Shown: positions 37,349 to 47,457, numbered from the stretch's first letter. The stretch: DNA of 51,806 nucleotides from Polyangia bacterium (GCA_030426845.1 JAUHXR010000020.1:1-51806); one strand, 5' to 3'. Numbers and translations: made by a program. The notes: generated from the sequence alone by a model not told the origin.

Positions 37349-37948
37349 TCACGCGGGCTTCGACGCGTCCTGGGACTCGAGGAAGTCGCGCGCGACGCGC
37401 CGGATCTTGTGCTGCCAGTTGTAGATCACCTGCAGGTCGACTTGCAGGATCTCGGCGACGCGGGCCGGGGGCATGCCGTCGGTGAACGCATAGCGGAACA
37501 CGAGCTGCCCCCGGGGCGAGAGCGACGCCATCAGGTGGCGGCCCAGCTTGAGCGCCAGCTCCGAGGCGGCGACCTCGGCCTCGGGGGTGGGCCCCGACTC
37601 GGGGGGCTCGGCGCCCGCCTCCAGGTCGACGTGTGTGGCCATGCTTCCTCGTTTCTGGGCCGCCCGGAGGCGCAGCCGATTTCCGATCTCCCGGGCCGCG
37701 ATCATCCCGACGTAGCCCTCGAGCGAGGCGCCCCGGGTGGGGTCGTAGTCCCGCAGCGCCCGGCCGTTGCCGCGCAAGAGCGCGTACCAGACGTCCTGCA
37801 CCAGATCGCTCAGCTCGACCCCGCGCGTGGCGCCGCGGGCGAGCGCGACGCGGGCCCGCGCCTCGAGCACCGGCGAGAGCCGGCGAACGAGGCGCTGCAC
37901 CGCCGCCTCGTCCCCCGTGAGGGCCTGACGGATGAGAAGCTGGTCCAC
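37349..37948 (-). CDS. ECF-type RNA polymerase sigma factor
   Basis: 199 residues. Region 2 (about 40-95; ELSDLVQDVWYALLRGNGRALRDYDP...LEGYVGMIAAREIGNR) and region 4 (about 145-190; LSPRGQLVFRYAFTDGMPPARVAEILQVDLQVIYNWQHKIRR) are in place, with no region 3, which defines an ECF sigma factor. It is the last gene of the CHAT-membrane protein-subtilase operon, 34 bases after the subtilase. GTG 37948 is the start. The membrane protein at 40268 is the likely anti-sigma partner, and the CHAT and subtilase lipoproteins could feed signals to it. Probably directs transcription of its own operon (see 43717). Confidence 0.9.
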   Translation of the reverse strand: MDQLLIRQALTGDEAAVQRLVRRLSPVLEARARVALARGATRGVELSDLVQDVWYALLRGNGRALRDYDPTRGASLEGYVGMIAAREIGNRLRLRAAQKRGSMATHVDLEAGAEPPESGPTPEAEVAASELALKLGRHLMASLSPRGQLVFRYAFTDGMPPARVAEILQVDLQVIYNWQHKIRRVARDFLESQDASKPA

Positions 37949-37982
37949 GGGAAGAGTCCGCGTGTGAGAGAGGAGTGGGGGA

Positions 37983-40253
37983 CTACTCGATCCGCAGCGC
38001 CGACACGGTCGTCTCGGGGATGTTGTTCCCGTCGGCCACCGTCACCAGGAGCGAGGCCTTCGCCTCCGACCAGTCGAAGCCCTCCGGGATGTCGAGGAGC
38101 GAGAGCTGCAGGATCTGCGAGGAGCCGGGGTAGAAGTACTGCTCGTACGCCTGCAGGTTGAAGGCGAGGGTCTGCTCCATCGGGCCGACCACGACGAGAA
38201 TGGGCTGGGAGAAGCTCGTCCCCGGCTCGTAGTCCGGCTTCAGGTCGACGAAGAGCACGCCCGTGGTGCCGTAGACCGTGAGGCCGCAGTCGGGGCAGGG
38301 GGGATCGTGAGGCTGCGGACCCAGCCCGCCGTTGAGCGACTGGAAGGGCGCGGGGTCCGGGGCGCACCCGGCGGGCGGGCACGTGGCGTCGACGAAGCCG
38401 CCCGCGACCACGACGGTGGGGCCGCACGCGTCGCTCGGCGCAGGGAAGGCGGCCGGCCAGGCGACGGAGGTGTGCTCTGCGCAGCTCAGGACCGGCGCGC
38501 CTTCGTCGTCCACGATCTCGAGCCCGCAGGCTTCGAGCTCGCCCGCGAACGAGCGGAGCAGGTCCGGGCCGATCGCGACGTCGCTGGGCTCCTGCGCGCG
38601 GTCGAGCAGCGACCCGCAGCTCGACTCGGAGAGCGCCTGGTCGAGCCGCCCGACGTGGAGGCGGCGGACCACCGCTCCGTCGGCCGTGTGGCGGGGTGAG
38701 GTCGGGTTCATCCGCTCGCAGGTGGTCTCGCCCGTGAGGTAGAGGACGCGGGCGAGCGTGTCGGCCGCGAACGGCTCCTCGCGGGCCGACTGCGCGCGCG
38801 CGGCCGCGCCGCTCACGAGCGCGGCGCTCACCGACGTGCCCGTGAACACGTGCGGCAGCTCGACGGTGGCCGGCGCCGTGGTGGGCCCGCAGGCGGGCGG
38901 GCTCGCGGTCGACGTCACGGACGGGTGGGCGGCGTAGACGTGCTCCCCCGGCGCGACGAGCGGCGGCTCCATGCCGGGGATCGAGACGGCGCTCGGGCGG
39001 TCCCGGTCGTCCACCGCGCCGACGCCGATGCCGAGGCGGAAGGTCGAGTGCACCCCGTCGGCGCAGGAGTCCGTCTGCTGGTACCAAGCCGGCGCGAACC
39101 ACGGCTGGGCCGGCCACGGGTCGGCTCCGCAGTCGTGGTAGACGGCGCTGGACGGAGGGAACAGGCCGGGCGACGGAGGCCGCGGCTGGTTGCCGGCCGC
39201 GGACGAGACGAAGACCTCGCGCGACTCGAGCTGATCGGCGACGTAGAGCATGTAGCGGACGGGCTCGCCGAACGGATCCTCGTGCGTCTGACACGAGGCC
39301 TCGCCCGCGAGCTCCGCGGGCCGCCCGAGCTCGGCGGGCCAGCCCAGGCTCAGGTTCACCACGAGGGGTCGCGTGCTGTCCGCGTCGGCGAAGAGGGCGT
39401 GGTCGAGCCCCCGCGCCACCGAGCCTCCCAGGCCCGCGCCGCCCTCGCCGAGCACCCGGATCGAGTGGAGCGCCGCCTCGGGCGCGAGCTGACGGATGAG
39501 CACCGCCATCCCGGTCCCGTGGGGGTGCAGCGCGCCGCCGCCCGCGAAGTCGGCGCTGCTCGTCACGCCGATCTGCGCCGCGACGGCCCCGTCGACGCCG
39601 GTGTCGAGGACCGCGACGTCCACGCGCGGATCGCTCGGCGGCGACGTCGCCAGGCTCGCGGGGAGCCCGACGCGGTCGAGGTGCCAGCTCAGCATGTCGG
39701 GCGTGGCGACGTCCTCGACCCCCATCGCGGTCGCGTCGCACTCGCGGCCGACGTAGATGTCATCGGCCGAGACGGGCACGGCGAGCGCGGCGGCGGCGTC
39801 CAGCAGCTCGGTGCGCAGCGTCGCGACCACGTCGCATTGCGCCTCGGGACGCACCGGGACCACCCCGCCGTCCGGGGTGATGAAGCGGTACCGGTAGAAG
39901 CGGAGGTGGCCGTCCTCCCGGACCCCGGCGGACTCGCGCTCCGGCAGCAGCGGGGCCGCGTCGACCTCCACCTCGGTGTAGGGGCACGGCCCGACCGCGT
40001 CGCAGAACCAGCCGGGGTTCGCCATCGCGGCCGCGGTCATCGCCTCTTGCGTCACGCTGGCCACGCGGTGGTCGCGCCACGGCACGTTCCGCGCGAGCGG
40101 CACGTCGACGTAGAAGACATCCGACCGACACGGGCGCGCGATGACCTCGGCGCTGCCGATCGCCGCTTCGGTCCGGCCGAGCTCGGCCGCCGGGGCGGCG
40201 CCCACGCAGCCCGTCATCGAGGCGGCGGCCAGCAGAGCAATGTAACGATCCAT
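37983..40253 (-). CDS. Subtilisin-like serine protease lipoprotein
   Basis: 756 residues from ATG 40253. A signal peptide ends in MTGC (Cys16), so it is a probable lipoprotein. Residues 20-210 form a long pro/accessory region. The S8 catalytic triad is intact: Asp217 (VAVLDTGVDG), His245 (HPHGTGMAV), the oxyanion Asn355 (SAAGNQP), and Ser474 (FTGTSVSAALVSG). The C-terminal 270 residues form an additional beta-rich domain. It hydrolyses proteins in the periplasm or at the outer surface. A purine-rich AAAGGA lies upstream of the start. It sits between a membrane protein and the ECF sigma gene, and could cleave the anti-sigma-like protein. Confidence 0.92.
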   Translation of the reverse strand: MDRYIALLAAASMTGCVGAAPAAELGRTEAAIGSAEVIARPCRSDVFYVDVPLARNVPWRDHRVASVTQEAMTAAAMANPGWFCDAVGPCPYTEVEVDAAPLLPERESAGVREDGHLRFYRYRFITPDGGVVPVRPEAQCDVVATLRTELLDAAAALAVPVSADDIYVGRECDATAMGVEDVATPDMLSWHLDRVGLPASLATSPPSDPRVDVAVLDTGVDGAVAAQIGVTSSADFAGGGALHPHGTGMAVLIRQLAPEAALHSIRVLGEGGAGLGGSVARGLDHALFADADSTRPLVVNLSLGWPAELGRPAELAGEASCQTHEDPFGEPVRYMLYVADQLESREVFVSSAAGNQPRPPSPGLFPPSSAVYHDCGADPWPAQPWFAPAWYQQTDSCADGVHSTFRLGIGVGAVDDRDRPSAVSIPGMEPPLVAPGEHVYAAHPSVTSTASPPACGPTTAPATVELPHVFTGTSVSAALVSGAAARAQSAREEPFAADTLARVLYLTGETTCERMNPTSPRHTADGAVVRRLHVGRLDQALSESSCGSLLDRAQEPSDVAIGPDLLRSFAGELEACGLEIVDDEGAPVLSCAEHTSVAWPAAFPAPSDACGPTVVVAGGFVDATCPPAGCAPDPAPFQSLNGGLGPQPHDPPCPDCGLTVYGTTGVLFVDLKPDYEPGTSFSQPILVVVGPMEQTLAFNLQAYEQYFYPGSSQILQLSLLDIPEGFDWSEAKASLLVTVADGNNIPETTVSALRIE

Positions 40254-40267
40254 GTGCAGGTCCTTTG

Positions 40268-40981
40268 TCAGTTGTCGTCGGGGTTCTGGAAGCGGACGCG
40301 TCGCTCGAACCGAGCGAGCGCTTCGACGCCCTCGAGCTCGTCGATCGAGCCGACCGCGGAGCGTTCGCCGGGTGGCGTCACGAGCACGTGGAGCGTCCAG
40401 TCGCCGGGCTCGTCGAAGAGCGCGCCGGCGCGGATCTCCACCCGAGCGCCGCCGCGCGGTCCGCTCACGATCTCGGGGGAGGTCGCCTCGACGAGGCGCC
40501 CTCCTCGGGCGGCGAACACGCGGATCGTGCTGGGCGCCGCGGGCCCATCGGGTCGCGCGACGAGCCGCAGGCGACTGTCGGGGACGAACACCTCGGAGGC
40601 CGGGCCCTCGCCGCGCTCGGTCGCCACCCCGCCGGTCGGCCCCTCCAGCGTGTAGTGACCATCGAGCGCGGGCGCTCCGCCCGCCGGCCACACCATCACC
40701 GCGAGGAGGGCGGCGGCGGCGAGCGACCCCGCGCCCATCGTGACGCGGGCGAGCTGGCGACGCCGACGGCTCCCTCGGAACGCGGCCTCTCCCTGGGCCA
40801 GGGTCGCTTCGCTCACCGGCCGTCGCAGCTCGGCGAGCAGGTCGCGCGCCTCCCGGTTTCGCGCAAGCATCGCCTCGGTCGCCTCGTCGAGCGCGAGCAG
40901 CTTGCCGTCGTCGATCGGCTCCGCGGTCGGCTCGTCGTCGGGGATCGCGCGGAGCAGCGCGTCGAGCTCGTCGTCCGTCAT
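40268..40981 (-). CDS. Single-pass membrane protein, candidate anti-sigma factor
   Basis: 237 residues. The N-terminal 75 residues are acidic and helical (MTDDELDALLRAIPDDE..., LLALDEATEAMLARNREARDLLAELRRPVSEATLAQGEAAFRG), then RRRR and one TM helix (about 80-99, MGAGSLAAAALLAVMVWPA). A 140-residue beta-rich extracytoplasmic domain follows. There is no zinc-finger HxxxCxxC motif, so if it is an anti-sigma factor it is not of the ZAS type. Position between CHAT and subtilase, upstream of an ECF sigma, and topology make this role the best guess. ATG 40981 overlaps the CHAT stop (ATGA); the subtilase starts 14 bases after its stop. Confidence 0.6.
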   Translation of the reverse strand: MTDDELDALLRAIPDDEPTAEPIDDGKLLALDEATEAMLARNREARDLLAELRRPVSEATLAQGEAAFRGSRRRRQLARVTMGAGSLAAAALLAVMVWPAGGAPALDGHYTLEGPTGGVATERGEGPASEVFVPDSRLRLVARPDGPAAPSTIRVFAARGGRLVEATSPEIVSGPRGGARVEIRAGALFDEPGDWTLHVLVTPPGERSAVGSIDELEGVEALARFERRVRFQNPDDN

Positions 40982-43704
40982 CGCGCCGGCTCCGGTCGAC
41001 GCCAGCCCAGCACCCGGAAGCGTCGCCAGCCGCTCGCCCCTGCGGCCTCCGCGGACAGCGCCGCGTCCCGGTAGGCCCGCACCGGCTCGCGCGCGCCGCC
41101 GTGCGCGTAGAACGACTCGATGAAGCGCTGCGCGGCGGCGTCGTCGACGTCGCCGTCGGTCGCGAGCACGCCGCTGGCGCCGAGCGCCACGAAGGCCTCG
41201 GCGAGGCTGATGGGCGCGGTCGCGGTCTCGGCGGTCCGGCAGCCGCTGAGCACCACCACGCCGACGCGCGGGGCGGCCACGAGCAGGTCTTCGAGCGAGA
41301 GCACCTGCCCGCCGGTGAGGTCGAGGTGCGCGTCCCACGCGCCCTCGCCGCGCAGTCGGCCATGACCGGCGAAGTGAAAGAGCGACGAGCCGTCGACGAG
41401 GTCCAGCACCGCGCGCCGCGTCGCCGCGTCCCCGACTACCACGCGCGCCTCGGTGAGCTCGGCCACGCGCGCTCCCTCGGCGCGGGCGTGCGGGAGGTCG
41501 CCGTCGGGGTCCGCGACCACCACGCGCGGGCCCGGGGCGGGCGCGCGCCGCGGCACGCCGGCGTGCGTCAGGTAGGCGATCCCGAACCGCTCCAGCCACG
41601 GCGCGCCGCTCGGATCCTGCGCGCGATGCAGCGCCCGCGCCCCTTCGGCCGCCGCGACGACGTAGAGCGACGTCACCCCCGCCAGGTCGTCGGCGAACGG
41701 CGCGAGCGCGGCGCGCGCGAGCCATCGATGGATCCGCGTCTCGGGCCGGATCACGAAGCCGAGCACGCGATCGCCGACCTGGCTCAGCGAGAGCAGCGCC
41801 TCGTCCGGCTCGAGCGCCTCGGCGACCGCGTCCGGCGACGCGACCTCGATCGAGATCGGCGCGACCCGCTCGAGGTAGCCCTCGATGTCGTTGAAGCGGC
41901 TCGCGAGCGCTCGCCGCTCGACGACCCGCTGCGCGTCGAAGGCCGGCAGCTCGGAGGTAGGCACGAGATCGCGCTCGCTCCGTGAGACCTCGTACCGCGC
42001 GCGCGCGTCGAGGTAGTCGCTCACCAGCGCGTCGAGGCGCTCGCGTCGCGAGGCCGGGAGCGCCTCGAGCCGGAGGCGCGTCTCGAGCTCTCGCTGCGGC
42101 ATCGTGTGGAGGCGCTGGACGACCAGGAACGCGTCCCCCTCGCGGCCGGCCTCCAGGGCCCACCGGGCCGCGGACTCGTAGAGCCGGCGACGGTCCCGCC
42201 GGAACAGGGCGCGCGAGCCCTCCAGGTCGACGTGGGTGGCCAGCGACTCCACCTCGTCGATCGCGGCCAGCGCGTCGTCGGTGGCCCGGTCGAAGCGCCC
42301 GCGCTGCGCGCGCACCTGGGCGCGGCCGAAGCGCGCCCGCCACGCGTACTCGGACCCCACCCCGCCGCCCTCCTGCTCCGCGAGGCGCAGGGCCGAGTCG
42401 AACCGCATCTCAGCCGCGGTGAGCGCCCCCGACGCGAGCGCGATCTGGCCGGCGACGACCTCGGTGAACGGACCGGCGAACGACTCGCGGGCCGGGTCGA
42501 GGCGCTCCAGCTCGCGGAGCAGCGTGAGGGCCCGCTCGTGCCGGCCGTCGAGGTACTCGACCCACACGAGGTTCGCGACGTGGTTGGCCTCGTGCCTCGT
42601 CGAGCCCTGCTGCTGGGCGAGGCGGCGGGCCTCCTCGAACGCCGCGCGCGGCCGCGCGCGATCGACCTCGATGGCCCCCGCCTCCATGGCCTGCAGGAGC
42701 ACCCAGCCCCGATCGTTGACGAAGTGCATCCAGAGCGGCGTGCCCTCCAGCCGCGGCGCGACGCGGTCCAGCGCCTCCACCGCCTCCGCGTGCTGGCCGG
42801 TGCGCGCGAGCAGGGGCGCGCGGGCCTGCGTCGCCAGCGCGGCCTCGACGTCCAGGCCGGAAGCCCAGGCGATCTGCTCCGCCTCGTCCAGCGCGGCCTC
42901 GGCGCGCCGGAGGCTCCCGCGCTCGAGCAGGACGTAGGCCCGGGTCCGCAGCGCCCGCGCGATGCCCTGCGCGTTCCTCGTCTCGCGGTCGAGCGCCTCG
43001 GCGCGATCGAGGCGACGGAGCGCGTCGTCGAAGCGCCGGGCGTACAAGGCCTGGTGCGCCGCGGCGCGGAGGCCCCTCGACGCCTCGGTCGGGACACCCG
43101 CGCTCGTCGCGGCCTCGGCCACGCGGTCCCACGCCGCGATCGCCGCGCTGACGTCCCCCTGGCTTTGCGCGACGCGCGCCAGCTCGACCCGCGCGGCGAC
43201 GCGCGCCCGCGGCGAGAGGCGCTCCAGCGCTCCCTCGAGGAGGGCCTGCCGTCGCTCATCGGACGCGCTCTCGAGGCGCGCGCGGAGCTCCTCGGGGAGG
43301 GGGGCCGGGTCCGCCAGGCGGAACGACGCGCGGACTCGCCCCTCGGCGTCGCGGACCTCGAGCCGATCGCCCGCCGGCGCAGACTCGAGCTCCACGCGCA
43401 TCAGGCGGTAGCGGCCTCGCTCCTCCTCACGCGCGACCGTCAGGTCGAGGCCGGCGTCCCCCCGCGCGATCTGCAGGGACAGTGGCTCGGCCGACCGCGG
43501 GACGCGCACGACGAGCTCGGCGCCGAGCACCACCGCGAGGCCGTCCCCGCCGTCGACGACCCGCTGCTCGTAGCCGAACAGCTCGGCGTCGATCGGGGGC
43601 GCGGCGCGACGGTCAGCCGGCCGATCGCAGCCCGCGACGCCGACGATCAGGCAACAGACAGCGCGGGCAGCGCGCGTGCGCGCAGCGGTGAGAGGAGCGG
43701 CCAC
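40978..43704 (-). CDS. TPR-CHAT caspase-like protease lipoprotein
   Basis: 908 residues from GTG 43704. Signal peptide ARAVCCLIVGVAGC with lipobox VAGC, so an envelope lipoprotein rather than the usual cytoplasmic CHAT protein. A short beta-rich part is followed by about ten TPR-like helical repeats (about residues 150-540). A C-terminal CHAT domain (about 600-900) has the catalytic His781 in LFHFAGHGRLRGE and Cys822 in VVLSGCRTAE, followed by SLAEAFVALGASGVLAT. The His-Cys dyad is intact, so peptidase activity is expected. TPR-CHAT proteins are activated by partner binding. First gene of the operon with anti-sigma-like, subtilase and ECF sigma genes. Confidence 0.88.
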   Translation of the reverse strand: MAAPLTAARTRAARAVCCLIVGVAGCDRPADRRAAPPIDAELFGYEQRVVDGGDGLAVVLGAELVVRVPRSAEPLSLQIARGDAGLDLTVAREEERGRYRLMRVELESAPAGDRLEVRDAEGRVRASFRLADPAPLPEELRARLESASDERRQALLEGALERLSPRARVAARVELARVAQSQGDVSAAIAAWDRVAEAATSAGVPTEASRGLRAAAHQALYARRFDDALRRLDRAEALDRETRNAQGIARALRTRAYVLLERGSLRRAEAALDEAEQIAWASGLDVEAALATQARAPLLARTGQHAEAVEALDRVAPRLEGTPLWMHFVNDRGWVLLQAMEAGAIEVDRARPRAAFEEARRLAQQQGSTRHEANHVANLVWVEYLDGRHERALTLLRELERLDPARESFAGPFTEVVAGQIALASGALTAAEMRFDSALRLAEQEGGGVGSEYAWRARFGRAQVRAQRGRFDRATDDALAAIDEVESLATHVDLEGSRALFRRDRRRLYESAARWALEAGREGDAFLVVQRLHTMPQRELETRLRLEALPASRRERLDALVSDYLDARARYEVSRSERDLVPTSELPAFDAQRVVERRALASRFNDIEGYLERVAPISIEVASPDAVAEALEPDEALLSLSQVGDRVLGFVIRPETRIHRWLARAALAPFADDLAGVTSLYVVAAAEGARALHRAQDPSGAPWLERFGIAYLTHAGVPRRAPAPGPRVVVADPDGDLPHARAEGARVAELTEARVVVGDAATRRAVLDLVDGSSLFHFAGHGRLRGEGAWDAHLDLTGGQVLSLEDLLVAAPRVGVVVLSGCRTAETATAPISLAEAFVALGASGVLATDGDVDDAAAQRFIESFYAHGGAREPVRAYRDAALSAEAAGASGWRRFRVLGWRRPEPAR

Positions 43705-43716
43705 GGTACGAGTTAT

Positions 43717-43750
43717 TACTCGAACCGCTCGGGGCGCCTTTTCGCAAACC
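43717..43750 (-). promoter_or_regulatory. Candidate ECF promoter of CHAT operon
   Basis: On the minus strand GGTTTGCGAAAAG is followed after 12 bases by GTTCGAGTA (43725-43717), about 13 bases before the GTG of the CHAT gene. AAAAG-N12-GTTCGAGTA recurs in the opposite direction at 43801-43826. Two conserved blocks whose centres are about one and a half to two helix turns apart fit the -35 and -10 of an ECF sigma factor. Confidence 0.6.
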
Positions 43751-43800
43751 CGAAAAAAAGTCGGACGGGAACGCGCGGTTGGCCTGGCGCGCGCTCGTGA

Positions 43801-43826
43801 AAAGTCGCGGCCCATCGTTCGAGTAC
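43801..43826 (+). promoter_or_regulatory. Candidate ECF promoter of the matrixin operon
   Basis: AAAAG (43801-43805), 12 bases, then GTTCGAGTA (43818-43826), the same bipartite element and spacing as on the other strand. It lies 80 bases before the ATG of the lipoprotein gene, leaving a leader with an AGGAG ribosome binding site. Confidence 0.6.
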
Positions 43827-43906
43827 CTCCCCTCGTGAGGCGGCGAAGCACGCCGCGACAGATCCGCGCACCGCAGCTGCGGGGCGCGACATCGGGAGGA
43901 GAGCAG

Positions 43907-44500
43907 ATGAAGAGTCACAAGCCCCTGAGTCACCCGCGCCGATGGGTGGCCCTGATCTCGGTCATGCTGTCGATCGGCTGCTCGGCGGGGGGCGTGCCCG
44001 CGGGCAGCACCACGAGCGCGGTGGAGGAGGCGGAGACGATCGAGCGCACCTCGATCACTCCGACGACCCCGGCGGAGCTCGCCATCAGCCGCGTCGAGGG
44101 GTTCGACCTCGAGCTGTACGCCCAGCGCGCCGACTTCGTCCTGCTCGGCCACGTCTCCGAGGCGCGCGCGCAGCGCGTCGTCTACCCGACGGGCGACGTG
44201 CGCGTCGAGACGCAGTTCACGATCCGCACCGAGGAGGCGTTCGCGGGTGAGCCGGAGGAGGAGCTGATCCTCACCGTCCGGGGCGGCGAGGTCGACGGCG
44301 TCCGCTCCAGCGTCTCGCACGCGGCCGAGCTGGCGATCGAGGACGACGTACTGCTCTTCGTCACGCGCGGCCCGACCCAGGATCGCGTGCTGGGCGGCGC
44401 GCAGGGCGCGCTCCTCGTCCGCGAGGGCATGATCGTGGCGACCGGTGAAGAGGTCGCGACCTTCGCGGAAGCGGTCATCAACGCGCGGGAGGGGGCGTGA
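43907..44500 (+). CDS. Lipoprotein paired with matrixin protease
   Basis: 197 residues. Signal peptide with lipobox SIGC (Cys25), then a beta-rich domain with FVLLGHVSEARAQRVVYPTGDVRVETQFTI, ELILTVRGGEVDGVRSSVSHAAEL, DVLLFVTRG and VLGGAQGALLVREG. Proteins of this pattern (ending in a G-x-A-Q-G strand) are commonly encoded directly before a matrixin-type protease in deltaproteobacteria, as here. It might be an inhibitor, chaperone or anchor of the protease; this is inference. The ATG has AGGAGAG just before it. The stop overlaps the matrixin ATG (TGATG). Confidence 0.7.
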   Translation: MKSHKPLSHPRRWVALISVMLSIGCSAGGVPAGSTTSAVEEAETIERTSITPTTPAELAISRVEGFDLELYAQRADFVLLGHVSEARAQRVVYPTGDVRVETQFTIRTEEAFAGEPEEELILTVRGGEVDGVRSSVSHAAELAIEDDVLLFVTRGPTQDRVLGGAQGALLVREGMIVATGEEVATFAEAVINAREGA

Positions 44501-47400
44501 TGAGTCGCTCCACGCGCATCGCGGCGCTCGTGATCGCCGCGCTCGTCGGGCTCCCGCTGGCCGGGGCGTCCGCGTTCACCCTCGACCGGCGCTGGCACAC
44601 CGGCGTGGTCGAGTACCACATCAACAACCAGGGCTTCCGCGGCTCCACGCTCCCGACCTCCGTTCAGAGCGCGGCCATCGAGGGCGGCGCGGACGAGTGG
44701 CAGTTCGAGGGCTGCTCGCCGTTCCAGTTCAACCGGCTGGGCGCCACGACGACCCGGATCGACAACGACGGTCGCAACGTCGTCCTCGTGCCCGAGATCT
44801 CCTCGCTGCCCGCCAACGCGCTCGCGCAGACGACGCAGCGGTTCCGTTCCGACGACCCGGAGCGGCTCATCGAGTTCGACATGGAGTTCAACCAGCACTT
44901 CGTGGTCGGCGTGCCCGGCAACGGGACGGTGATGAGCGGCGGCGGCATCGCCTTCGGCAACATGACGGGCTCGGGCTCCGAGGTGGTGCTCTCGGCGCTC
45001 GACAACGTCCATCCTGGCCTCGACTACTGGCGGGTCACCTTCGGTACGAGCTGCCAGAACGGCTGCTCGTTCGTGACGCCGGCGAACATCCCCGCGGGCG
45101 GCACCCACCTGGCCTCGAGCGCGGTGGCGCTCGGTGAGCTCGACACCGGGGCGTTCGGTCAGGAGACCGTGCTCAGCGCGATCGATCGCTTCGACGGCGG
45201 GACCGACTACTGGCGCGTCCGCGCGCTCCGGTCCTGCGGCACCGACCCGTCGACGTGCGTCCGCTCGCCGATCCTTCAGGTGCACCCGCCCGGGGTGAAC
45301 CGGATGACCGGCGGCGGCGTTGCGGTGGCCAACGTGTTCGGCAACTCCAAGCCAGAGATCTTCCTCCTCGGCGTGGAGGAGGTCGACGGCGGGCTCGACA
45401 ACTGGATCCTGGCGGTCCTTACCGACTGCGACGCGTCGCTGAGCTGCGCGGCTCAGAACTTCCACACCATTCCGACGCAAGGGACGGTTGTCACGGGCGG
45501 CGGGATCGCCGTCGGCGAGCTCGATGGCACTCCGGGCCTGGAGATCCTCATCGCCGGAATCGACAACTTCGACGAGGGCCACGACTACTGGCGTGCCAAC
45601 GTGGTCGAGTGCACGAATGGCGCGGTCTGCACCGCGGGCACCACCATCATCCAGGTCGGCTCCGGCGGGACGACCCTCACCGGGGGCGGCGTCGCGATCG
45701 GCAACGTCGACGGCGACTCGGACAACGAGGTGATGCTGGGCGCGATCGACGTCTGGGAGGGCCTGGACTACTGGCGCGTGGCCCGGCTCGACGACGACTG
45801 CTTCGACACCGCCCCCGGCTGCAGCACGGAGATCACCCAGGTCCCCGGCGGCGGCTCGGTGATGAGCGGCGGCGGGGTGATGCTCGCCGATCTCGACGCC
45901 TCGGGGACCCCCGAGCTCGTCCTGAGCGGCATCGACAACTACGAGGACGGGCTCGACTACTGGCGGGTCGCCTTCGGCCGCGACTGCGACGGGGGGGTCT
46001 GTCCGATCGGGCGCGCCTTCTCGACGAGCGGCGCCCCGGGCACGACGGACATCCAGTCCGTCGCCGCGCACGAGTTCGGACACGCCGCCGGTCTCAATCA
46101 CACGGCCGCGGTGCCCTCCGCGGTCATGACGTGCAGCATCGGGACGGGCATGCAGCGGCGTGATCTCACCTGCGACGACGTGCACGGGCTCCAGCAGCTC
46201 TACTCGACGTCGTCGGTCTGCCCCAACTTCGGCAAGGTGCAGACCCTGAGCACCGGCCTGGCCGACGCGGAGGGCGGACACGCGGTGGCGGTTGATCTCG
46301 GCGGATCCACGCACGGCGTGATGACCATCGCGGTCGAGCGCGGCGTGCCGAACCCTCGCTGGGCCATCGGCGTCGGGAGCGGCTGCAGCACGGTCACCGG
46401 GGAGTGCAGCTGGGCCCCCGCTCAGCGGATCCAGTCGGAGGCGGAGGCGCTGTCGAGCCCGAGCATCGCGGTCGGCCGCTTCGACGGTGACGCGGACGAC
46501 GACGTCATCATCTCCGCGATCTCGACCGAGGCGGACGGAACCCAGGGCGTCCGCTACCGGATCGGCACGGAGTGCAAGTCCACGGGCTGCGAGTGGGGTG
46601 ACGAGCACTTCAGGCCGCTGACGGGCGCGTCGCACCCGCTCACCGGCGGCGGCGTCGCCGTCGGTCGGGTCGTCGACGACGGCTCGGAGCGGCCGCAGGT
46701 GGTGATCGCGGCCATCGAGCGGCGCCCCGGCGCGCCGGACCAGTGGGTCTACGAGATCGGGATCGCGTGCGGCGCTGACGACTGCGTCTTCTCGGGCTTC
46801 CCGCAGAACGTCTCGTCCGGGGTCGATGACCTCGTCGGCGGCGGCGTGGACATCGGCTCGCTCGACACCAGCGGCACCGAGGAGGTGGTGCTGGCGGGGA
46901 TCCGGACCGATCCGCTCGACTCCGACGACTGGGTGGTGGCGATCCTCCGGGACTGCAGCACCAACAGCTGCGTCTCCCCGTCGGCGCCGTTCACGGTCTC
47001 CGCGGCGGAGAACGGGCCGGCGATGATGTGCGGGGCCTCGCGTGGTCAGCTCCTCTCCGACGCGGCGGGCACGATGCGTGGCGGCGGCGTCTACGTCGGC
47101 GACCTGAGCGGCGGTCCGGAGGACGAGATCCTCATCAGCGGCATCGACGCTGGCGACGACCATCACTTCTATCGCCACGTGCTGCTGTCGAACTGCGACG
47201 TCGGCGTGCAGACCTGCCCCGCGCCTACCGCGGCGCGGGTCACCTCGAGCGGCGCGGCCGGGCTCAGCGGGGGCGGCATCACCGCGCGGCGGGTCGACGG
47301 CGACCTGGACTACGACGCGGTCCTCGTCGGCCTCGACACGGCGGGCCCGAGCGGCGCGTACTGGCGCGTGCGTAACCGGGTCGACCCCTGCGGGCTCTGA
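44500..47400 (+). CDS. Matrixin-type metalloprotease split by tandem repeats
   Basis: 966 residues. A signal peptide (AALVIAALVGLPLAGASA) is followed by the first half of a matrixin catalytic domain (RRWHTGVVEYHINNQGF ... LIEFDMEFN, residues 27-133). Then come six repeats of about 62 residues (134-510), each with GGGxAxG..., an acidic D..G.xEhxLxxID core, and LDYWRV. The domain then resumes with DIQSVAAHEFGHAAGLNHT (zinc ligands His524, His528, His534) and the Met-turn SAVMTC. Six more repeats (about 570-960) follow. The repeats resemble VCBS/FG-GAP propeller blades. ATG 44500 overlaps the stop of the preceding lipoprotein gene; GTG 44497 is also possible. It should be a secreted zinc endopeptidase if the split domain folds. 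Confidence 0.85.
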   Translation: MSRSTRIAALVIAALVGLPLAGASAFTLDRRWHTGVVEYHINNQGFRGSTLPTSVQSAAIEGGADEWQFEGCSPFQFNRLGATTTRIDNDGRNVVLVPEISSLPANALAQTTQRFRSDDPERLIEFDMEFNQHFVVGVPGNGTVMSGGGIAFGNMTGSGSEVVLSALDNVHPGLDYWRVTFGTSCQNGCSFVTPANIPAGGTHLASSAVALGELDTGAFGQETVLSAIDRFDGGTDYWRVRALRSCGTDPSTCVRSPILQVHPPGVNRMTGGGVAVANVFGNSKPEIFLLGVEEVDGGLDNWILAVLTDCDASLSCAAQNFHTIPTQGTVVTGGGIAVGELDGTPGLEILIAGIDNFDEGHDYWRANVVECTNGAVCTAGTTIIQVGSGGTTLTGGGVAIGNVDGDSDNEVMLGAIDVWEGLDYWRVARLDDDCFDTAPGCSTEITQVPGGGSVMSGGGVMLADLDASGTPELVLSGIDNYEDGLDYWRVAFGRDCDGGVCPIGRAFSTSGAPGTTDIQSVAAHEFGHAAGLNHTAAVPSAVMTCSIGTGMQRRDLTCDDVHGLQQLYSTSSVCPNFGKVQTLSTGLADAEGGHAVAVDLGGSTHGVMTIAVERGVPNPRWAIGVGSGCSTVTGECSWAPAQRIQSEAEALSSPSIAVGRFDGDADDDVIISAISTEADGTQGVRYRIGTECKSTGCEWGDEHFRPLTGASHPLTGGGVAVGRVVDDGSERPQVVIAAIERRPGAPDQWVYEIGIACGADDCVFSGFPQNVSSGVDDLVGGGVDIGSLDTSGTEEVVLAGIRTDPLDSDDWVVAILRDCSTNSCVSPSAPFTVSAAENGPAMMCGASRGQLLSDAAGTMRGGGVYVGDLSGGPEDEILISGIDAGDDHHFYRHVLLSNCDVGVQTCPAPTAARVTSSGAAGLSGGGITARRVDGDLDYDAVLVGLDTAGPSGAYWRVRNRVDPCGL

Positions 47401-47423: not shown

Positions 47424-47457
47424 GACTCCGGGGGCCTCGATCGAGGTCCCCGGAGTC
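47424..47457 (+). terminator. Strong palindromic terminator after matrixin gene
   Basis: A 34-base palindrome: arm GACTCCGGGG-G-CCTCGA pairs with TCGAGG-T-CCCCGGAGTC, all Watson-Crick except one G-U, with only the innermost TCGA able to form the loop. It ends 57 bases past the stop and is followed by CTTCGTTT. Probable rho-independent terminator, possibly bidirectional because the ferritin-like gene converges on it. Confidence 0.8.

Follow-up and report, generated by a model that had tools for sequence, protein, structure and literature searches.

Conserved linkage of a predicted exported TPR-CHAT protein, a candidate membrane anti-sigma factor and an ECF sigma factor in Myxococcota and Acidobacteriota

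The Myxococcus sigma factor DdvS, which controls an antiphage island, is partnered by the transmembrane anti-sigma factor DdvA (PMC12288465). In the Craspase of type III-E CRISPR systems, Csx29 cuts Csx30, an inhibitor of an ECF sigma factor (PMC10028731). CHAT and subtilase genes also lie near the ECF54 sigma factors of Actinobacteria, and on the basis of these neighbours control without an anti-sigma factor was proposed (PMC8999054). Here we describe a family of loci in which the protease and an anti-sigma candidate are encoded by separate genes with intact catalytic residues, and which connects two cases described in isolation, the anti-sigma factor DdvA and the sigma-inhibitor protease of Craspase. 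Because the genes are separate and the residues intact, it becomes testable whether CHAT cleavage releases the ECF sigma factor and what the TPR region senses, and the cassette thereby offers a testable route by which the cell surface could switch genes on by proteolysis.

The window is a stretch of 51,806 nucleotides from a Polyangia bacterium (GCA_030426845.1, JAUHXR010000020.1). Its minus strand carries one operon, at 37349–43704, with genes for a TPR-CHAT lipoprotein, a single-pass membrane (TM) protein, a subtilisin-like (S8) lipoprotein and an ECF sigma factor. Divergent from it, a plus-strand operon holds the genes of a small lipoprotein and a matrixin. All six open reading frames of the preliminary description were found, at the right coordinates, and the catalytic residues it named were correct (His781 and Cys822 in CHAT; Asp217, His245 and Ser474 in S8; HExxHxxGxxH in the matrixin, where the sequence reads HEFGHAAGLNH). 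The CHAT gene product (40978–43704, minus strand) matched both CHAT (E 1.3e-21) and TPR in Pfam and has the lipobox VAGC. A GTG start at 43704 gives a normal lipoprotein signal (VGVAGC) and is consistent with the His781/Cys822 numbering; an ATG at 43815, which would extend the gene to 40978–43815, has a superior ribosome-binding site, at the cost of a long promoter-like leader. The S8 lipoprotein (37983–40253, minus strand, ATG at 40253, lipobox MTGC) matched Peptidase_S8 (Pfam, E 9e-12), and its catalytic triad and oxyanion Asn355 are invariant across five relatives. The final gene of the operon (37349–37948, minus strand) encodes a 199-residue sigma factor that matched Sigma70_r2 (Pfam, E 5.5e-7) and, above cut-off, the NCBIfam model TIGR02937 for sigma70-ECF factors.

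Pfam and NCBIfam searches gave no match for the TM protein (40268–40981, minus strand). Its AlphaFold2 model, built from 40 homologues (pLDDT 81), has cytosolic helices at residues 3–68, a TM helix at 76–97 and a periplasmic Ig-like β-sandwich at 105–236, and 49 of 51 homologues carry positive charges N-terminal of the TM helix, which by the positive-inside rule places the N terminus inside and the C terminus outside. Model and charge topology together give the layout of a membrane anti-sigma factor, namely a helical cytosolic domain, one TM helix and an external C terminus. Structure matches to the model were Ig-like domains only, with the cytosolic domain barely covered, and in a profile search no solved structure matched the cytosolic domain significantly. 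Zinc ligands are missing from the window protein and from most homologues. In three homologues (L086, L107 and L117) the cytosolic part contains HxxxCxxC, a mark of zinc anti-sigma domains, and one of these zinc-motif homologues matched zf-HC2 with an E value of 9.6e-4, narrowly below the Pfam cut-off. Many zinc-less members retain in the same part a GEL-S/D-EE-like stretch, which we take to be a remnant of the zinc anti-sigma domain. The TM gene usually follows the sigma gene directly, the two being adjacent in most of 49 loci described below; in the window the sigma gene lies 2.3 kb downstream of the TM gene, after S8. Given its architecture, its usual place after sigma, the zinc motif of some homologues and the presumed zinc-domain remnant, we regard the TM protein as a candidate anti-sigma factor. 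The three zinc-motif relatives may be evolutionary intermediates.

To follow the cassette across genomes, we assembled 49 loci in which CHAT is flanked by at least 4 kb on either side, mostly from Myxococcota and including two Acidobacteriota metagenome-assembled genomes (MAGs), and annotated them with our own profiles for sigma, TM, S8 and CHAT. A sigma gene was found in 45 of the 49 loci, a TM gene in 44 (and in one more fused to CHAT) and an S8 gene in 33. Similar partners were found at the 27 loci that lay outside profile building (sigma 24; TM 23, plus one fused to CHAT and sub-threshold; S8 23). The CHAT profiles matched 18 of 116 genomes sampled from the order and 26 of 237 from the phylum, the two samples sharing some genomes. 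Scanning named genomes brought in Polyangium, Sorangium cellulosum So0157-2, Pyxidicoccus, Byssovorax and the two Acidobacteriota MAGs; named carriers include the Sorangium strain, Polyangium fumosum and Pyxidicoccus caerfyrddinensis. The most frequent order, sigma-TM-CHAT-S8 in one direction, occurs at 17 of the 49 loci, and the order of the window, CHAT-TM-S8-sigma, occurs at one, the window itself. With about 20 different arrangements among the 49 loci, linkage persists despite reshuffling. The preliminary description was to be refuted if no relative conserved the gene order; it passes this check in amended form, since what is conserved across the 49 loci is membership, and not a fixed order.

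The host genome (9.4 Mb in 538 contigs) contains three CHAT genes and three sigma/TM/CHAT/S8 quartets, and the two paralogous quartets are both ordered sigma-TM-CHAT-S8. Only five sequences in this genome match the window sigma factor at E ≤ 1e-3, and three of them adjoin the three CHAT genes. Together, the two extra quartets and the placement of three of five sigma matches beside CHAT indicate that linkage exceeds chance. Tree distances of the components are correlated (r 0.64–0.75; 0 of 500 permutations), and when paralogues were swapped within genomes only, 0 to 3 of 1,000 shuffles reached the observed correlation. Our results thus support CHAT, the TM protein, sigma and often S8 as one conserved unit. 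S8 is its least constant part, missing from about a third of loci and elsewhere sometimes in the other orientation or kilobases away. At four CHAT loci that have no S8 (L020, L021, L022 and L024), other small lipoproteins adjoin CHAT, perhaps as a replacement. One further CHAT match, L088 (genome G207, contig 59, 4074–6812), contains a single in-frame TAG, reflecting either an assembly error or a decaying copy.

The preliminary description had placed the proteases outside the cytoplasm because of their export signals, and this was borne out for most CHAT and S8 members: a liberal scan found such signals, often with a lipobox, in 54 of 62 CHAT and 37 of 42 S8 proteins. The fusions give a second line of evidence. 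In four genomes (G088, G098, G107 and the Acidobacteriota MAG with L130) an anti-sigma-like part, a TM helix and an Ig-like domain are fused in-frame to TPR-CHAT, and fused TM-CHAT open reading frames lie at L056 (11632–8297), L061 (8139–11294), L062 (7659–10817) and L130 (7125–10730). As the fused chain has one TM helix, its CHAT domain lies outside the cytoplasm, independently of signal prediction. These locations bear on the proposal made for ECF54, which, carried over to this family, would have sigma under proteolytic control without an anti-sigma factor and the TM protein doing something else. The neighbouring CHAT and subtilase genes that motivated that proposal are present here too. However, exported CHAT and S8 proteins and a periplasmic fused CHAT could not reach a cytoplasmic sigma factor, and the TM protein adjoins sigma and has homologues with a zinc anti-sigma motif, so that we consider this explanation very improbable.

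The fusions and the near-constant adjacency point to a direct partnership between CHAT and the TM protein. Such linkage and fusion fall short of proving that CHAT cuts its partner, and the TM protein might instead be an anti-sigma factor that is left uncut, with CHAT and S8 as sigma-controlled outputs, proteases secreted or placed at the surface for predation or envelope turnover. ECF sigma operons often contain their own targets, and both the export signals found at most loci and the optional, variably placed S8 would suit such outputs. Against this, four genomes have CHAT and the TM protein joined in one chain, 44 of the 49 loci have the two close together, and DdvA has its TPR-CHAT module within the anti-sigma factor itself. 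We therefore think it unlikely that both proteases are mere outputs, and prefer to see in CHAT an enzyme that acts on the TM protein.

The model of the window CHAT protein (pLDDT 84, pTM 0.81) comprises a signal helix, a β-domain at residues 41–131, a TPR superhelix at about 138–614 and a CHAT domain at 635–899. Single-protein sequence searches against the PDB gave no match. Foldseek comparison of the model with solved structures ranked DdvA first (E 5.6e-16), followed by Csx29 and then separase. A second aligner gave Z 23.4 for Csx29 (8eey_B; 541 residues, rmsd 10.2) and Z 19.9 for DdvA (581 residues, rmsd 6.2), with DdvA having the highest identity of these matches, 18%. A 2024 structural paper on DdvA is reported to have described a zinc-containing three-helix cytosolic domain and a periplasmic TPR-CHAT region with an incomplete active site. 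The same paper reportedly proposed autoproteolysis in trans as a first step and intramembrane proteolysis as a second.

The incomplete active site reported for DdvA would favour a different role for TPR-CHAT, that of a co-receptor that is not a protease but binds a ligand and gates the anti-sigma factor through binding, leaving the cutting to S8. The TPR and β-domain account for two thirds of the CHAT protein, and the S8 residues Asp, His, Asn and Ser are kept in all 12 sequences read. Yet all 25 complete CHAT domains retain His and Cys, which predicts catalysis, and an S8 enzyme is missing from about a third of loci; a purely binding role for CHAT is accordingly improbable in our view.

Comparison with DdvA/DdvS shows a common plan of an ECF sigma factor, an anti-sigma factor with one TM helix (a candidate in the window) and a periplasmic TPR-CHAT region in which His and Cys are present. 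DdvA combines the anti-sigma domain, the TM helix and TPR-CHAT in one chain, whereas the window divides them between two genes. The window-type anti-sigma candidate carries an Ig-like domain and in most cases lacks the zinc motif, whereas the DdvA-like proteins of L152, L153 and L155 have HxxxCxxC. An S8 lipoprotein is often added in the split cassette; none was seen at six DdvA-like loci of Pyxidicoccus (L150–L155), and this genus has both kinds: its split cassette (L125) includes S8, and several of its DdvA-like proteins have no S8 nearby. By topology alone, the CHAT tree places DdvA and its Pyxidicoccus relatives in a clade of their own outside the split family, whereas the fused TM-CHAT proteins, although DdvA-like in plan, are nested within it at two places. 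Finally, the DdvA/DdvS type controls CBASS and CRISPR genes, whereas the window cassette is adjoined by no specific defence gene: PADLOC returned only generic methyltransferase, CHAT and subtilase matches in the neighbourhood. As the cassette differs from DdvA/DdvS in chain, zinc domain and clade, we file it as a separate split lineage. It is a widespread split version of the DdvA/DdvS switch with an added S8, apparently not previously described. The CHAT complement of Pyxidicoccus caerfyrddinensis (L150–L157) is large, with nineteen CHAT-like matches in one genome, and at least three of its DdvA-type ZAS-TM-TPR-CHAT proteins adjoin a short sigma-like open reading frame.

The computed evidence comprises linked and fused genes, conserved residues, topology, folds and the correlation of trees; from it we infer sigma binding, the CHAT cut and its trigger, the S8 role and the regulon as parts of a trans-envelope proteolytic switch, in which exported TPR-CHAT cuts the membrane anti-sigma factor and frees the ECF sigma factor; we judge this mechanism fairly probable. 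In this model, the 40268–40981 protein would hold sigma at the inner membrane through its helical, zinc-less cytosolic domain and display its Ig-like domain to the periplasm, where the TPR superhelix of the CHAT lipoprotein would sense a signal or bind that domain. The His-Cys CHAT peptidase, perhaps with S8, would then be the first to cut the anti-sigma factor, outside the membrane, and RseP-type intramembrane proteolysis would free sigma. S8, being optional, would be an accessory that amplifies or matures the first cut, or else an output of the regulon. The arrangement resembles RseA/DegS/RseP in its helical cytosolic domain, single TM helix and periplasmic domain open to a first cut, which is made there by a PDZ serine protease and would be made here by a caspase-like CHAT enzyme. 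More tentatively, at least two phyla may share a general trans-envelope sigma switch in which CHAT, acting outside the cytoplasm, makes the first cut and subtilisin serves as a second protease; anti-sigma factor and CHAT would then have been fused at least three times, twice in the split family and once in the lineage of DdvA, and this switch would have DdvA and Craspase as specialised relatives.

Craspase and the cassette both encode together a TPR-CHAT protease with His and Cys, a sigma inhibitor (a candidate here) and an ECF sigma factor. Craspase, however, is cytoplasmic and RNA-guided with Cas7-11, whereas the cassette has an exported CHAT and a membrane inhibitor candidate, and no Cas-like gene, Cas7-11 included, was found among the window neighbours scanned at 34.8–50.0 kb. 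Profile A6, which bears on homology of the inhibitor candidate with Csx30, had no significant match among solved structures. With the ECF54 context the cassette shares the presence of CHAT and subtilase genes close to an ECF sigma gene; ECF54 is described as lacking an anti-sigma factor, whereas the cassette of Myxococcota and Acidobacteriota has a membrane anti-sigma candidate at 44 of 49 loci. This suggests that the 'no anti-sigma' view of ECF groups with CHAT neighbours merits re-examination. The preliminary description knew of no system of this composition, which is in part incorrect, as DdvA/DdvS, Csx29-Csx30-sigma and the ECF54 context are described relatives or analogues.

The locus had also been presented as one of three proteases. 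The matrixin (44497–47400, plus strand; Peptidase_M10 in Pfam, E 4.9e-11) is predicted to be exported, and its homologues elsewhere lie away from the cassette, with none found beside CHAT. Weak homologues of the small lipoprotein (43907–44500, plus strand) occur here and there within the order, none of them located close to a CHAT cassette. We judged both genes to be outside the system; since the cassette and their operon are not conserved together, 'three-protease' should read two. The divergent operon may share a promoter region with the cassette in this one strain. The intergenic region between them (43705–43906), which presumably holds the promoters, has an A/T-rich stretch and, at 43705–43740, the inverted repeat CGAGTTATTACTCG. 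A motif search upstream of the operons in the window and its relatives found no shared motif convincing above shuffled sequence, leaving autoregulation unsupported; the sole enriched short word, GTGGTA, was rejected because it fell in coding overlap, in close relatives or at scattered positions. Within the matrixin, the protease domain sits among several GGGxxxG...DYWRV repeats that resemble integrin-type propeller repeats, and a near-perfect 17-bp hairpin just after the gene (47424–47457) is a likely terminator.
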